This document shows, one piece after another, positions 14,192-29,892 of a stretch of DNA of 33,289 nt. The position numbers were made by a program, and so were the translations under genes. The notes under the pieces are model-generated. The model saw only the letters and a list, made by a program, of their open reading frames with translations. It ran no database searches and had not been told where the DNA came from. How positions within the stretch are numbered: position 1 is the first letter of the stretch; each line of letters opens with the position of its first letter. Source of the stretch: Longimicrobiales bacterium (GTDB lineage Bacteria; Gemmatimonadota; Gemmatimonadetes; Longimicrobiales; RSA9); the NCBI GenBank assembly GCA_035764935.1, contig DASTYK010000041.1, forward strand, positions 1 to 33,289, written 5' to 3'.

Positions 14192-14221
14192 ACAATACGC
14201 GACCGCGCGACGCGCTGTCAA
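14192..14221 (-). promoter_or_regulatory. Strong sigma70-type promoter of the SusCD operon
   Basis: On the minus strand, a perfect TTGACA (14221-14216) and TATTGT (14197-14192) are 18 nt apart. This is the best promoter match in the window. It implies a 5' leader of about 150 nt before the SusC start codon. A GACCA/TGGTC inverted repeat (14171-14187) lies around the expected transcription start. Confidence 0.75.
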
Positions 14222-14230
14222 GAAGCAATC

Positions 14231-14249
14231 CGGGGCGGTGACCGCCCCG
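14231..14249 (-). terminator. GC hairpin after the RnfD-like gene
   Basis: CGGGGCGG (14231-14238) pairs with CCGCCCCG (14242-14249) around a 3-nt loop, 10 nt past the stop codon at 14259. Reading on the minus strand it is followed by a moderately T-rich segment (ATTGCTTCTT). It separates the upstream gene from the SusC promoter. Confidence 0.6.
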
Positions 14250-14258
14250 CGGCTCAGG

Positions 14259-15851
14259 TCACGACCCGGCCGAAACCGGCCGCTGCGCGCAGGTGCCGGG
14301 CCATCCCTGCTCGCAGGCGATCGCATAGAGTCGTGCCGGATCACGTTCCGTCAGTGGCGGTTTGGTCCCCCTGAGCACGATGGGCAGGTCAGCGAGCCGC
14401 GGGGCTTCCCGCGCAGGGGCAACGGCGCCGGGCCCCTCCGGGCGGGCAGCGGCACATGCCGGTGTGAAGCCCAGGCTGCACCCCCGGACCAGCGCCTGGC
14501 CTGCCGGTTCGCCCGCTTCCAGGCGGCGGATTGCCCACTCGTTGCAGGCCCACCCGGAGCCGTTCTCGCAGTAAATTCCCGTCATCGCCAGGACATAGTC
14601 ACAGGCGCGCTCGCTGCCAGCGCTGCACGCCTGGTCCCAGAACGGCAGTGCCTGGCCTGGATGGTGGTCTCCGACACCTCGTGAGACGCTCAGCGCCAGG
14701 AAGACGCAGGCCCAGACGGCGGTCCACGCGAGATGGGCTCTGCGCGCACTCGACGGCGCCGCCGCGACGGCCTGCCGCGGGGCTCGAGTGAGCCGGTCGA
14801 TCCCGCGCACGGTCAGATTCATGAGCGGCACCGGGAGCAGTTTGTCGTAGAACGTCGGAACTCCGAGTGCACTGAGCAGCACGTAGAAGGCGGCGGTGCC
14901 CGTGCCGTAGATCGCACCGAAGGCGACACGTCCCGTGCCGGTCCGCGGCGAGGTGGACGGGTCGGTGAAGAGGAGGTGCATCCCGAGAAAAACGGGCAGC
15001 GGGATGTGCGAGTCGAAGAAAAGGTAAGTGCCGGTGACCTGAAGGTAGACCTCACTGATGAGGAACAGCGTGACCACGGCCGACAGCGTCATCCGCGCCA
15101 CCCCGAACAGGACCTGGCCCGGGAGTGACACGAGGAAGATCACGAGGTACATGTGCGGCGGGTAGAACTGCGTCGTGGCGATGGCGGTCCCCAGCGTGAT
15201 GTCGGAGGACGCCGTCGCGATCAGCAGGATCGACGCGAGCCCGAGCGGGAAGGAGGACGGGTTGAAGATGTGTGCCGAGCGTCCCTCACGCTGCCAGCGG
15301 ATGAACTCCTTGGCCGCGAACCCGACCAGGATCATCGCAAACTGCAGGGCGAACCATTCCGGCTTGAACCAGAGGAACAGGTTGATGCTGAGGATGACCG
15401 GAAACGGGCCGAACCCGATCGGGTACCGGTGACGGCGCGAAAGGTTGAGCAGCGCATCGACGCCGTAGGCAAACACGAGCTGTGCAACGATGAGAGGCAG
15501 GAACGCATAGACGAAGCGGACATGCCACCCCCAGTACAGCAGCACGGCAGCCTGCGCACATGCCTGCACCCAGTGCGGCGTGCGGATGACGACCTCGAGG
15601 GCCAGCGACCGGCTGCTCCGGCGCGAACGAAGCCAGACGGCAGCGGTCCACGCGAGCAGCAGGCCGCCCGCACCTGCGAATGCCCAGAACAGGCCTGGCG
15701 TTCCGACGGCCAGCGGTGCAAACGCGAGCAACACTGCCGCACACGAGAGCGGCAGCAGCAGCACGCGAGCGGTTCCCGGTCCACTCGCGCGCTGAGTTGG
15801 CGTGCTCGCCGCGGCAGGCGCCGTGATTACCGGTGAAACGTCCCTTCCCAT
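14259..15851 (-). CDS. RnfD/NqrB-like integral membrane protein with C-terminal CX7C Sel1/HCP-like repeats
   Basis: The product has 530 residues. Residues 28-350 hold about nine or ten hydrophobic helices and the NQR2/RnfD/RnfE-family landmarks: HIFNPSSFPLG (194-204) and LFTDPSTSPRTGTGR, then GAIYG (about 294-316), matching the RnfD block around TDP and GR...GALIG. The SGAT motif used for covalent FMN binding in RnfD/NqrB is not visible. A further helix (about 373-390) leads to a non-membrane tail with four CX7C pairs: C409/C417, C428/C436, C458/C466 and C513/C521, each with a G between the cysteines and most preceded by A, as in disulfide-linked Sel1/HCP repeats. The tail is therefore probably periplasmic. 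ATG 15851 was chosen at MGRDV, with GGAAAGG upstream; the frame extends to 15971. No other Rnf genes lie nearby. The role is unknown; redox or scaffolding is plausible. Confidence 0.75.
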   Translation of the reverse strand: MGRDVSPVITAPAAASTPTQRASGPGTARVLLLPLSCAAVLLAFAPLAVGTPGLFWAFAGAGGLLLAWTAAVWLRSRRSSRSLALEVVIRTPHWVQACAQAAVLLYWGWHVRFVYAFLPLIVAQLVFAYGVDALLNLSRRHRYPIGFGPFPVILSINLFLWFKPEWFALQFAMILVGFAAKEFIRWQREGRSAHIFNPSSFPLGLASILLIATASSDITLGTAIATTQFYPPHMYLVIFLVSLPGQVLFGVARMTLSAVVTLFLISEVYLQVTGTYLFFDSHIPLPVFLGMHLLFTDPSTSPRTGTGRVAFGAIYGTGTAAFYVLLSALGVPTFYDKLLPVPLMNLTVRGIDRLTRAPRQAVAAAPSSARRAHLAWTAVWACVFLALSVSRGVGDHHPGQALPFWDQACSAGSERACDYVLAMTGIYCENGSGWACNEWAIRRLEAGEPAGQALVRGCSLGFTPACAAARPEGPGAVAPAREAPRLADLPIVLRGTKPPLTERDPARLYAIACEQGWPGTCAQRPVSAGS

Positions 15852-16012: not shown

Positions 16013-16040
16013 ATGATATGCAGATCGACCGGACCGGCAA
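16013..16040 (-). promoter_or_regulatory. Candidate promoter of the RnfD-like gene
   Basis: On the minus strand, TTGCCG (16040-16035) and TATCAT (16018-16013) are 16 nt apart; the -10 box matches consensus at five of six positions. The transcript would start near 16006 and have a leader of about 155 nt that contains the possible small frame starting at 15940. Confidence 0.42.
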
Positions 16041-22207: not shown

Positions 22208-24667
22208 TCAACGCACCCGGATCGTTTCCCCCTGCTGCTGTTCGTCCGGGCCGGTCCTGCGGCTCTGCTGTTCGGGCGGCTTGCCGAAGTTGAACGTGAG
22301 GCCGACGCTCACCATCCGGGAGCTGAAGCTCGAGCGGCTGACCTGGACGTGCGTGGCATCCCGCGTGGAGCTGTCGTAGCTGTAGAGGTTGAGCGGATCG
22401 CTCACGCTGAGCGATATGCTGCCCTTGTTGCCGAACATCTGCTGGCGCAGCGAGATCGACGTGAACAGGTAACCGGACGCGCGTCCCTGCAGGATCGACT
22501 GCTGCGGGAAGTAGTTCGCGTACATCTGCGAGGTGAGAGACTCGCGGATCTTCACGCCGACATTGCCGCCGAGCGACCAGAGGAACGCGGCGCGGCGATG
22601 CTGCCCGGCGATGTTGCTGCCGTCGCGCTCGTCGCGGTAGACGCTGAACGACGTCGAACCGGTCACGCGACCGGAGGGCGGCAGCGAGATGGTGAAGCTG
22701 GAGCCGTACGCCTTGCTCGACGCTGCGTTCTCCCAGCGGGACGTTGCGACGCCCTCCTCATCCACCGTCCGGATGCGCTCCCAGACGTCCGTCGAGTAGC
22801 GGTAATACGGCGCGATGCGCAGCGTGCCGAGCCTGCCGGTGATGCTGCCGTCGAGTGTGATCGACTGCGTGTGGCTCGGGCGCAGGTTTGGATTGCCCGC
22901 GTAGCGGTTCAGCGGATCGGTCACGGGAACTGCGGGATCGAGGTAGTAGGGGTGCGGCCGGTTGATCCGCTTCGAGTAGAGCAGTCGGAGCGTGCGCCCG
23001 GGCTTCGGCGTCCAGGACAGGTTCGCACTGGGGAAGAGCGTGTTGTAGGGACGGTCGAACTCGTCACCGGTCACGAGCGAAAGGAACTCCGTCTCGGCGC
23101 GCTCTGCACGCAGCCCTCCCTGGATGCCGAACTGCCCGAACGTGCGTGCCCACGTCCAGTACAGTGAATGGAAGATCTCCTCGAAGTCGAAGCCTGACGC
23201 TGCGCGCGTAGAGGGGACGTCGTCGTCGGGCGATGCGTAGATGCGCAGCAGGTTGTCGCCGTTCTGCGTTCGCTGCCAGGCCTTGTAGCCCAGATCGACG
23301 CGGCCGCCGAAGAGCGGTGCAAAGTAATCGGCCTGAATGGAGAGCTGCCCGTCGCCGACGTCCTGGTCGTTGTCCGTGATCTCGTCGGTCAGGTCCGCCG
23401 GCTCACCGTTCTGCACGTGCATGTGGCGGGTCATGAAGATCTCGCTCTCGTGCCCACCATTGGTCCAGCGTGCGTCGATGGTCAGCTCGCGCTTCTGCTG
23501 CTCGAACACCTGCTTGAAGCCGGCGCCGATGTTGTAGCTGTGCCAGCCCTGGCTCTCGTCGGAGAGCCGGTCGTAGCGTTCCAGCTCGACGTGGCCCTCG
23601 TTGAAGATGTCGTAGCCGGTCACGCCGCCGCCGCTGCCGCTGCTGCTGTACATCCATGCGTTGGACCACAGTGTCGCCTGCGCACCGACCTTCAGCTCCG
23701 CCGTCCAGTCGAGGTTCCAGCCGCGTGAGCGATTGTCCCGCGTCGCATTCTGTTCGACGACCGTAATCGGATCCGCCAGCAGGTTCTCGCGGCGATCGTA
23801 GGACGTGTACTCCATGCCGTAGCGGTTCACGCCACCGCCGGCGAAGAGCGTGAGGCCACCGCGCTGGTAGTTGAGCCGCCCGCTCAGGAACTGCCGGTTG
23901 CGTGTCGATGCGTTCGCGGAGAGGCTGCCGCTGAGACCCAGGTCCAGGTCGTCCTGCAGCACGATGTTGACGATGCCGCCCATGCCCTCCGGATCATGAC
24001 GTGCCGAAGGGTTCGGCATCACCTCGACGCGCTCGATGCGATTGCCGGGAAGCTGCTCGAGAAAGTTGGCGAGCTGCTCGCCGCGCAGCGGCGCGGGCCG
24101 GCCGTTGATGTGGATCGCGACCGGACGATTGCCACGCAGCTTCACGTTGTTGTCGACGTCGATCTCGAGCTCCGGGACCGCGCGCAGCACGTCGATGCCC
24201 GTGCCTGTCTCAGCGACCGGCATCGCAGCGGTGCCGTAGATCGTGCGATCCGCCTCGATGATGACACCCGAGCGTTCCGCCTCTGCGACAACGGCGTCGA
24301 GTGCGACAGCGCTCACCTCCAGGTCGATCGTGCCCAGGTCGGCCGTGCTCGAGGCTGCAGTCAGCGAAATCGTTTCACTGTTCCGGGACTTGAACCCGAT
24401 GAAGCTGACGCGAATGCGGTAATCACCGAGGGGCAGCGATTCCAGGACGAAGCCGCCACTGGCTTCGGTCAGCACACCCGTGACCACGGTGGAGTCCTCA
24501 GCGCTTCGGAGCGTGATGGTGACGCCGGCGAGGGGAGTCGAGTCGGCGTCGACCACGGTACCGGTGATGCGGCCCGGTCCGCCGACCTGCGGGAGGTCCT
24601 GGGCCGTCAGTGCTTGCGGGAGCGCGCCGCACAGCAGCAACGCAGGGAGAAGGAGAGCCGATTTCAT
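22208..24667 (-). CDS. TonB-dependent receptor, outer-membrane beta-barrel family (OMP_b-brl_3 type)
   Basis: The product has 819 residues: signal peptide (to about 22), a carboxypeptidase-regulatory-like domain (about 33-115), a plug domain (about 130-240) with VKLRGNRPVAIHINGRP and the GGIVNIVL strand, then a barrel. The length and layout fit the OMP_b-brl_3 branch of TonB-dependent receptors, common in Bacteroidota-like lineages, and differ from the SusC type at 10989. The C terminus is an unusual polar tail (QSRRTGPDEQQQGE) after the last FNFG strand instead of ending in Phe. The substrate is unknown. ATG 24667 was chosen at the start of the signal peptide; the ribosome binding site is weak. 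Only 18 bp separate its stop codon from that of metE on the other strand. It is divergent from the S41 protease gene. Confidence 0.88.
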   Translation of the reverse strand: MKSALLLPALLLCGALPQALTAQDLPQVGGPGRITGTVVDADSTPLAGVTITLRSAEDSTVVTGVLTEASGGFVLESLPLGDYRIRVSFIGFKSRNSETISLTAASSTADLGTIDLEVSAVALDAVVAEAERSGVIIEADRTIYGTAAMPVAETGTGIDVLRAVPELEIDVDNNVKLRGNRPVAIHINGRPAPLRGEQLANFLEQLPGNRIERVEVMPNPSARHDPEGMGGIVNIVLQDDLDLGLSGSLSANASTRNRQFLSGRLNYQRGGLTLFAGGGVNRYGMEYTSYDRRENLLADPITVVEQNATRDNRSRGWNLDWTAELKVGAQATLWSNAWMYSSSGSGGGVTGYDIFNEGHVELERYDRLSDESQGWHSYNIGAGFKQVFEQQKRELTIDARWTNGGHESEIFMTRHMHVQNGEPADLTDEITDNDQDVGDGQLSIQADYFAPLFGGRVDLGYKAWQRTQNGDNLLRIYASPDDDVPSTRAASGFDFEEIFHSLYWTWARTFGQFGIQGGLRAERAETEFLSLVTGDEFDRPYNTLFPSANLSWTPKPGRTLRLLYSKRINRPHPYYLDPAVPVTDPLNRYAGNPNLRPSHTQSITLDGSITGRLGTLRIAPYYRYSTDVWERIRTVDEEGVATSRWENAASSKAYGSSFTISLPPSGRVTGSTSFSVYRDERDGSNIAGQHRRAAFLWSLGGNVGVKIRESLTSQMYANYFPQQSILQGRASGYLFTSISLRQQMFGNKGSISLSVSDPLNLYSYDSSTRDATHVQVSRSSFSSRMVSVGLTFNFGKPPEQQSRRTGPDEQQQGETIRVR

Positions 24668-25009
24668 GACGCCATCGCTGCGCGTGTTGACGACCGCAGG
24701 CTGCCATGGCACAGGGAAATCCTGCTTCCGCGCGCGCCGCGACAGTGCATACTTGGAATCAGTGACGGGGAATGGCCCCATCGGGAATGGCAGGCAAAGG
24801 AAAGCTGCCGCTGGAGGATGAGCGGCGCAAGGATCATCATCGTCGGTACCGACGCGGAAGGTGTCGTACTGCGCCCGATCAGCCGCACCGCTCGATATAG
24901 CAGCAGCGATCCATGGCATGCCCCCTCTCTCACCATGAGCTTGCGAGGCGCGCCCCGGCGGCCGATATCTTCGCACGATCCCGACGCTCTCCCGAACGCC
25001 CGGAACATC
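24668..25009. other. Divergent promoter region with paired GGGAATGGC repeats
   Basis: The 342 bp between the TonB receptor and the S41 protease start codons contains no gene. Two direct repeats of GGGAATGGC (24768-24776 and 24783-24791) lie about 100 bp from the receptor start and upstream of TGCATA (24746-24751), a possible leftward -10 box. They could be activator sites. The right part carries the protease promoter candidate at 24941-24969. Confidence 0.45.
24941..24969 (+). promoter_or_regulatory. Weak candidate promoter of the S41 protease gene
   Basis: TTGCGA (24941-24946) and GATATC (24964-24969) are 17 nt apart, 40 bp before the start codon. The -35 box is fair and the -10 box poor, so this is tentative. 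Confidence 0.3.
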
Positions 25010-28228
<3,219 letters not shown>

Positions 28229-28316: not shown

Positions 28317-28347
28317 CATCCGAGGTACACGTGCATCGGAGGTGAGG

Positions 28348-29892
28348 ATGGCGGAGGGTGGCGGAGCGAACACGGGGGTGGATCTGCAGGACGGCGTACC
28401 GCTGGGCGCGCTGGCGGAGGGGGTCCCGCTGGCAGGGCACCTGGGCGAAGAGGCGATCCTGCTCGTGCGGCGGGGCGACACGGTGCATGCGATCGGCGCG
28501 ACGTGCACGCACTACGGCGGGCCGCTGGCGGAGGGGCTGATCGTCGGGGACACGGTGCGCTGTCCGTGGCACCACGCGTGTTTCTCGTTGCGGACGGGCG
28601 AGGCGCTCGGTGCGCCGGCGCTGAACCCGGTGGCGACCTGGACGGTCGAGGTGCGCGACGGCCGCGCCTTTGTCGGCGGCAGGCAGGAAGCAGCGCCGCT
28701 GTCGTCGCGGGGCCGCCGCTCGGACGTGCGCGGTCCCGTGGTGATCGTCGGCGCGGGGGCCGCGGGCAGTGCGGCGGCGGAGTGGCTGCGTCGCGAGGGG
28801 TTCGTCGGCGACATCGTGCTGGTGGACCCGGATCGTGACGCGCCGTACGATCGGCCGAACCTGTCCAAGGACTATCTGCAGGGGACAGCACCGGAGGAAT
28901 GGATCCCGCTCCGGCCTGCCGGCTTCTACGAGGAGCACCGGATCGAGCGCGTGAGCGATGCGGTAAGCCGCATCGACCGTGAGCGGCGAGTCGTACTGTT
29001 GCAGTCGGGTGTTTCCCTGCCCTACGCGGCGCTGCTGCTCGCAACCGGCTCGACGCCGCGGCGCCTGGACGTTCCTGGTGCGGACCGTGAGCACGTGCAC
29101 ACGCTGCGCTCGCTCGCGGACAGCCGCAGCATCATCGCGCGGGCCGAAAAGGTCGGCCGTGTGGTCATTGCGGGCGCCAGCTTCATCGGAATGGAAGTGG
29201 CGGCTTCGCTCCGGCAGCGCGGGCTGGACGTCTCCGTCGTCGCACCGGACCGGCTGCCCTTCGAGCGCACGCTGGGTGAGGAGCTGGGCAACCTTCTGCT
29301 CGATGTGCACCGCGGGCATGGTGTGCAGTTCCGGCTCGGCCGCACGATCGCGCGTATCGAGGATGCTTCGGTCGTGTTGAGCGACGGCGAGGAGCTGGGA
29401 GCGGAGCTGGTGATCGTGGGTGTGGGAGTGGATCCCGACGTGAGGCTTGCGACCGAGTCGGGCCTCGACGCAGACAACGGCGTTCTCGTGGACGAGTACC
29501 TGCGCACGTCGGATCCGCACATCTACGCGGCCGGCGACATCGCGCGCTGGCCGGATGCGCGCACCGGGCGTCGCATGCGGGTGGAGCACTGGGTCGTCGC
29601 GCAGCGGCAGGGTCAGGCGGCAGCGCGCAACATCCTGGGGCTGGCTCAGGCCTGGACGGATGTCCCGTTCTTCTGGACCACGCAGTTCGACGCCAGCGTG
29701 CGGTACGTGGGGCATGCGCCCGGCCTGGACGGTTTGCGTGTCGAGAGCACGTCGGACGGCGATGGCCGCGCGTTCCGCTACATCGAGGGGAACACGCTGC
29801 ATGCGCTCGCAACGGTCTCCCGTGACATGCTGAGCCTGGAAGTGGAAGCGGACATGGAGAGCGAGTCGCGAGCCGCGGCGGGTGCGCGATGA
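28348..29892 (+). CDS. Rieske [2Fe-2S]/FAD-dependent oxidoreductase (AIF-like ferredoxin reductase)
   Basis: The product has 514 residues. The N-terminal Rieske domain (about 12-112) has the complete cluster motif C53-T-H55 and C72-P-W-H75. It is fused to a pyridine nucleotide-disulfide oxidoreductase-type FAD module (about 128-430) with the FAD dinucleotide fold [10 protein letters not shown] (131-140), a second NAD(P)-binding fold with [11 protein letters not shown], and the FAD motif YAAGDIA. A reductase C-terminal domain follows. This layout is known from AIFL/AIFM3-type proteins and from ferredoxin reductases of oxygenase systems, so it probably moves electrons from NAD(P)H to an unknown partner in the cytoplasm. 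GGAGGTGAGG directly precedes ATG 28348, a very strong ribosome binding site. Its stop codon overlaps folE (ATGA). The operator and TTGACA box lie about 50 bp upstream. Confidence 0.9.

Follow-up and report, generated by a model that had tools for sequence, protein, structure and literature searches.

The gene under study lies in a window of 33,289 nucleotides (the whole stretch of Longimicrobiales bacterium DNA that was analysed) and encodes a fusion protein made up of a membrane domain of the NqrB/RnfD type, one additional transmembrane helix and, after it, a tail that contains four cysteine pairs of the C-x7-C type. This architecture is near certain. The domains themselves are known; their combination is undescribed as far as we found, and the covalent cofactor that defines the membrane family is lost. 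What was computed comprises the fusion and its conservation, the fold class of the membrane domain, the retention of pocket residues and the loss of flavinylation, in motif and machinery alike; the features of the gene are collected in Table 1. In the full-text literature (most subscription journals being outside its scope) no paper combining RnfD with Sel1 was found, in agreement with the original prediction, which had regarded the fusion as belonging to no described family.

The open reading frame begins with an ATG at position 15851 and its stop codon ends at position 14259, with a ribosome site of the GGAAAGG type located 5' of the start. Two promoter-like sites were found where 0.1 would be expected, and the gene looks monocistronic.

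Table 1. Features of the fusion gene and its flanks, in window positions.
Feature	Positions	Strand	Evidence or remark
Whole gene, 530 aa fusion protein	14259..15851	(-)	ORF and start site; full length kept in Acidobacteriota/Gemmatimonadota
NqrB/RnfD-like membrane core, residues 27-355	14787..15773	(-)	PF03116, AF2, Foldseek
K181...HIFNPSSF loop, cytoplasmic side, residues 181-201	15249..15311	(-)	Fits AK...G-x-N-x-x-N-P-A, which in NqrB belongs to the riboflavin pocket
Periplasmic loop, residues 214-233	15153..15212	(-)	Position of the covalent-FMN Thr of RnfD/NqrB; motif absent here
TDPSTSP, residues 296-302	14946..14966	(-)	D297 aligns with the riboflavin ligand D346 of NqrB
Extra transmembrane helix, residues 366-389, past the NqrB/RnfD core	14685..14756	(-)	AF2 helix and positive-inside count
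Sel1/HCP-like tail, predicted periplasmic, residues 396-521	14289..14666	(-)	Profile matches HcpC 1ouv, COA7 7mqz
Cys pair 1, C409-x7-C417	14601..14627	(-)	Kept in 64/67 and 64/67
Cys pair 2, C428-x7-C436	14544..14570	(-)	Kept in 64/67 and 64/67
Cys pair 3, C458-x7-C466	14454..14480	(-)	Kept in 62/67 and 62/67
Cys pair 4, C513-x7-C521	14289..14315	(-)	Kept in 62/67 and 64/67
Terminator-like hairpin just 3' of the stop	14231..14249	(-)	8 G-C pairs; weak when taken alone, as shuffles likewise give 1.4 such sites per region
Promoter-like TTGACA-18-TATTGT	14192..14221	(-)	Assigned to SusC, the next gene downstream, and not to the fusion gene
Promoter-like TTGCCG-16-TATCAT	16013..16040	(-)	~160 nt upstream of the fusion-gene start codon

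The membrane core is formed by two inverted helical repeats with half-helices. PF03116 (NQR2_RnfD_RnfE) is the only Pfam family seen in the query, at 20.5 bits and thus below the cut-off of 27.7, and no match to the NAD-binding domain PF00175 is present. All 23 family members tested match PF03116, and 17 of 23 match the NCBIfam model rnfD and 16 the model nqrB. Homologues in genomes G055, G087, G094 and G107 reach 30.7-33.3 bits with PF03116, above the curated cut-off. The single-sequence query gave no match to the PDB and a profile was needed; when the family profile is aligned to true RnfD/NqrB (RsxD) with hhalign, the TDP region matches with E=1.5e-6. The AlphaFold model of the whole protein has a pLDDT of 82 and a pTM of 0.81, and that of the membrane part, calculated with 64 sequences, a pLDDT of 90.9 and a pTM of 0.90. 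The ten best Foldseek matches in the PDB are all NqrB/RnfD (probability 0.99-1.00, TM 0.37-0.46, E about 0.01), followed by Rh/Amt proteins, and NqrB/RnfD come first for both AlphaFold models. Since the TM-scores are moderate (0.46) and E is about 0.01, the fold is related yet diverged. The membrane part had been proposed to be RnfD/NqrB-like, and a structure prediction of another kind would have spoken against this; the domain assignment stands on the profile matches of the family members and on the fold matches. The RnfD landmarks pointed out earlier are also present, NPSSFPLG at residues 197-204 and TDPSTSP...GR..FGAIYG at residues 296-316. The core resembles V. cholerae NqrB and E. coli RsxD in its two-repeat membrane fold and in the AK...xNPx and TDPxTSP landmarks.

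In NqrB and RnfD a covalently bound FMN lies towards the periplasm and a riboflavin towards the cytoplasm, the latter held in NqrB by the side chains of N200, N203, D346 and T162 and by backbone groups (PMC10643135, PMC9588780, PMC12174285). The threonine motif for the covalent flavin, S[GQ]AT, is absent from the query, as was noted in the original prediction for SGAT, and occurs in none of the 67 family members, while threonine fills the column of RsxD T187 in all true RnfD/NqrB compared (31/31, namely E. coli RsxD and 30 sequences of the sampled genomes). At the other site, residues K181, H194, N197 and P198 are invariant in the 66 sequences that cover them, as is D297. Using equivalences anchored on the common FNP and TDP motifs and not on a structural superposition, N197 corresponds to NqrB N203 and D297 to NqrB D346, so the asparagine and aspartate of the riboflavin pocket are present as in RnfD/NqrB, and K181 corresponds to the invariant lysine of RnfD. 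Unlike in NqrB, the N200 position is taken by the invariant His194. NqrB F342 corresponds to L293, and the equivalent of T162 is at or near S155, where the loop length differs and the placement is uncertain. As S[GQ]AT is missing from all members, N197 and D297 are invariant and K181 is matched, the covalent flavin site is, judged by sequence, gone and the non-covalent one largely kept. The retained pocket residues favour non-covalent flavin binding.

The cysteines of the tail are exactly those of the four pairs, with no further ones, and the tail contains no CxxC pair. Among 200,000 shuffles of the tail, 16 contain at least four C-x7-C pairs (p about 8e-5); the conservation of the pairs is stronger evidence than this statistic. 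The spacing within pairs is almost always 7 across homologues in pairs 1-3 and is 6-8 in pair 4. The pairs follow each other at offsets of 19, 30 and 55 residues, away from the regular period of about 36 residues of Sel1/HCP repeats, so that the constant spacing described earlier applies within the pairs (7) and not between them. The HCP/Sel1-type character assigned to the tail is borne out by the family profile, which matches HcpC (1ouv) with E=2.5e-9; the profile match to COA7 (7mqz) is weak (E=0.04). By itself the query is below the Pfam threshold for Sel1, which is matched in the planctomycete homologue L024 with E=6e-12. Like HcpC and other Sel1 repeats (PF08238), the tail has helical repeats in which C-x7-C pairs join adjacent helices by predicted bonds, each pair spanning the turn between consecutive helices in the AlphaFold model. 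It differs from them in being anchored to a membrane domain and in containing about 2-3 irregular repeats. The C-x7-C pairs of HCP-type repeats are normally structural disulfides joining neighbouring helices; the tail cysteines are thus probably structural, as predicted disulfides, and a 'redox-coupled' role through them is the weaker part of the original proposal.

Lysine and arginine counts in the loops place the amino-terminus and residues 79-90, 140-148, 184-199 and 356-365 inside, and residues 214-233 and 390 onward outside. From this positive-inside pattern (N-in, tail-out) we infer that the tail is periplasmic, as had been suggested. The carboxy-terminus of RnfD is cytoplasmic (PMC9588780), and the added helix 366-389, which RnfD/NqrB do not have, therefore explains how the tail would reach the periplasm, where disulfides form.

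A search for the same fusion in related genomes, suggested as a check, led to a conserved family; its alignment comprises 67 copies, one of them planctomycete and the others from Acidobacteriota and Gemmatimonadota. Because it is conserved in these copies, the fusion must be old and under selection rather than an annotation artefact. Among the GTDB genome contigs searched there are 25 loci, most of them acidobacterial; two have Gemmatimonadetes in their titles and one has Planctomycetota. In Gemmatimonadota, 53 of 298 genomes contain the gene, in up to four copies each and sometimes in tandem pairs; about one in six of the genomes sampled from this phylum thus has the family, as do many Acidobacteriota. 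Homologues lacking the cysteine pairs, which would have counted against the proposal, are not what is seen: 59 of the 64 full-length Acidobacteriota and Gemmatimonadota copies have all four pairs and the other five have three. Outside these 64 are two copies truncated by contig ends and the planctomycete homologue L024, which retains the fusion and a Sel1 tail, with the tail cysteines nearly all gone. A plasmid search for the fusion protein gave no match. Tandem pairs about 14-116 bp apart are located in one genus (G068:C65, G067:C1:503297-506363, G070:C67, G136:C45, G180:C39 and G253:C15); such divergent copies may form heteromers. One copy typical of Acidobacteriota, with neighbours of the acidobacterial type, comes from a MAG titled 'Bordetella parapertussis' (L010, CALQCC020000005.1), an organism label that is probably wrong.

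The host genome is 96% complete and the positive controls of the genome searches gave matches. Profile searches found neither ApbE, nor FMN_bind, nor a second PF03116 gene in it, so the earlier remark that no Rnf/Nqr subunits or ApbE are nearby is true and holds genome-wide as far as PF03116, ApbE and FMN_bind are concerned. A hidden Rnf/Nqr complex was considered and rejected on the grounds of these three genome-wide searches. ApbE is absent from 18 of 50 carrier genomes, including the one-contig genomes G067 and G027, and neither ApbE nor FMN_bind occurs in any of the 66 fusion-gene neighbourhoods; among the at least 24 carrier genomes of the sampled set, only G084 contains a full-length RnfD/NqrB. 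In the neighbourhoods neither a partner gene conserved across phyla nor an electron donor or acceptor partner was found, and only one WCxxC protein was seen across all of them.

A SusC/SusD uptake pair adjoins the fusion gene downstream in the window and is close to it in several other genera, and an operon was considered. This was downgraded because terminator-like and promoter-like sites are located in between and because an orthology control spoke against the association, the target-linked SusC being the best match of the window SusC in only three of 12 test genomes. With 14 SusD match stretches in the genome, chance adjacency is plausible. The order SusC, SusD, a small CarboxypepD_reg protein and the fusion gene or genes is conserved in two genera (L069, L070, L074, L088, L089, L091 and L097). 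Other neighbours considered as partners, DUF6152 and secreted proteins without names in Acidobacteriota and a creatininase/amidase group in Gemmatimonadota, are limited to their lineages and have no common theme. The double creatininase-domain protein beside the fusion gene, with the amidase further on (L062, L065, L068, L071 and L090), is conserved within one genus. For a possible link to the enediyne proteins UnbU/UnbV, UnbV_ASPIC had no match in the genome, an uninformative result since the search control was also silent. Elsewhere in the window, a Rieske [2Fe-2S] domain is fused to a pyridine nucleotide-disulphide oxidoreductase about 12 kb from the fusion gene (28342-29892, + strand). A Tricorn-type protease that carries S41 and PDZ domains is located at 23996-28225 (+ strand). 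The true start of the latter reading frame is probably well downstream, because its listed start overlaps a TonB-type receptor on the opposite strand (22208-25090).

Our preferred reading, held tentatively and with somewhat less than half of our confidence, is that of a stand-alone inner-membrane protein in which the non-covalent flavin half of NqrB/RnfD is combined with a disulfide-stapled periplasmic docking solenoid that replaces the covalent-FMN/RnfG relay. Going beyond the computed features, it involves a topology of the tail, the binding of a flavin, the transfer of electrons and the docking of a partner that we infer. The redox-coupled sensor or electron conduit of the original proposal would likewise go beyond them. 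The NqrB/RnfD-type domain would be joined to the periplasmic Sel1/HCP solenoid by the one added helix, and the core, keeping the inner pocket in the cytoplasmic leaflet, most likely binds a flavin there non-covalently, which possibly exchanges electrons with membrane quinone. Lost are the covalent-FMN site on the periplasmic side and the shuttle subunit (RnfG, NqrC or FMN_bind). The solenoid, on the side of the former covalent-FMN site and kept rigid by four structural disulfides, most likely offers a periplasmic partner a fixed place to dock. What passes between the membrane and the docked partner would be electrons or a conformational signal that depends on the flavin redox state. Against this reading stand the lack of a donor or acceptor partner among the neighbours, the sub-threshold PF03116 score of the query, the diverged fold, the exchange of one riboflavin ligand (N200 to His194), the change of F342 to L293 and the uncertain T162 equivalent, as well as the resemblance of NqrB/RnfD to urea/ammonium transporters. 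If the core binds flavin, the NqrB/RnfD fold would work without ApbE, covalent FMN or a multisubunit pump, and the protein would be a simple one for asking if electron or ion transfer can be sustained by the inner riboflavin site on its own. That it is a one-protein trans-envelope redox device without covalent flavinylation, in which the domain with its non-covalent flavin passes electrons directly to a partner, or to thiols on the protein's own solenoid, or senses either of them, we consider distinctly unlikely; if true, it would add to RnfG/NqrC and FMN_bind/ApbE a third route for linking this membrane fold to the periplasm.

It is rather unlikely that the protein is a flavin-free transporter or channel whose fold has lost its redox role and works like its urea- and ammonium-transporter relatives, with the solenoid as a periplasmic domain for binding a ligand or partner. 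NqrB has been described as urea- and ammonium-transporter-like and as the Na+ module (PMC10643135), and Rh/Amt proteins directly follow NqrB/RnfD among the fold matches; the loss of the covalent flavin and of all partner subunits searched for, and the uptake pair next to the gene, would also fit. Such a transporter would, if flavin-free, form a natural link between NqrB/RnfD and these transporters. Against it, the flavin-pocket Asn and Asp are invariant, and the neighbouring SusC has a promoter-like site of its own, with the target-linked SusC genes not consistently the closest relatives of that in the window.

An envelope sensor or assembly scaffold appears quite improbable; here other envelope proteins would be docked or chaperoned by the solenoid, and the membrane domain would serve chiefly as anchor or as reporter of redox state. 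Sel1/HCP repeats are usually protein-interaction scaffolds, and the weak match to COA7, a Sel1-like respiratory assembly factor, points the same way. COA7 and the tail both combine a Cys-rich Sel1-like fold with an oxidising compartment linked to respiration, a predicted location in the case of the tail; COA7 is soluble and eukaryotic. The high conservation of the core, with internal invariant polar residues, goes beyond the needs of an anchor, and no recurrent partner gene was found. A trans-membrane relay from flavin to thiols, DsbD-like in effect, in which the flavin electrons would pass to the tail C-x7-C pairs and reduce periplasmic disulfides, is suggested by the tethering of four conserved pairs to a flavin-type membrane domain and by COA7-type Sel1 proteins, which are reportedly disulfide reductases, but is very improbable given the structural nature of such pairs in HCP repeats, the lack of a tail CxxC pair, the single WCxxC neighbour and the planctomycete homologue, which keeps the fusion with hardly any tail cysteines.

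The preferred reading, a membrane core with a non-covalent flavin, has a parallel in the Nqr/Rnf-like two-subunit systems, in which the NqrB/RnfD domain of the complex is without the flavinylation threonine and a non-covalent flavin site is predicted to be kept; there, a cytosolic NAD-binding domain is fused and the protein is paired with an FMN_bind protein flavinylated by ApbE (PMC8238504, PMC11334425). The fusion described here differs in having no NAD domain, FMN_bind or ApbE, and in that its fused domain is predicted to be periplasmic. In the same phylum there is a lone RnfD-like protein of about 265 residues (loci L129-L139), a distant homologue of the membrane core, which aligns with the fusion over both repeats (hhalign E=3.5e-5) and has the motif GRSA[NH][VI]FNP in common with it; SGAT is absent from both. 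Unlike the fusion, the lone protein has no tail, and FMN_bind and ApbE genes adjoin it in nearly all of the loci seen. These loci (for example L134:6335-8291 and L133:4954-7443) are compact sets of three genes, encoding an FMN_bind protein with VSGAT, ApbE and the RnfD-like protein. The latter is without the NAD-binding domain that the published Nqr/Rnf-like systems have, and the three-gene set is possibly a smaller variant of these systems.
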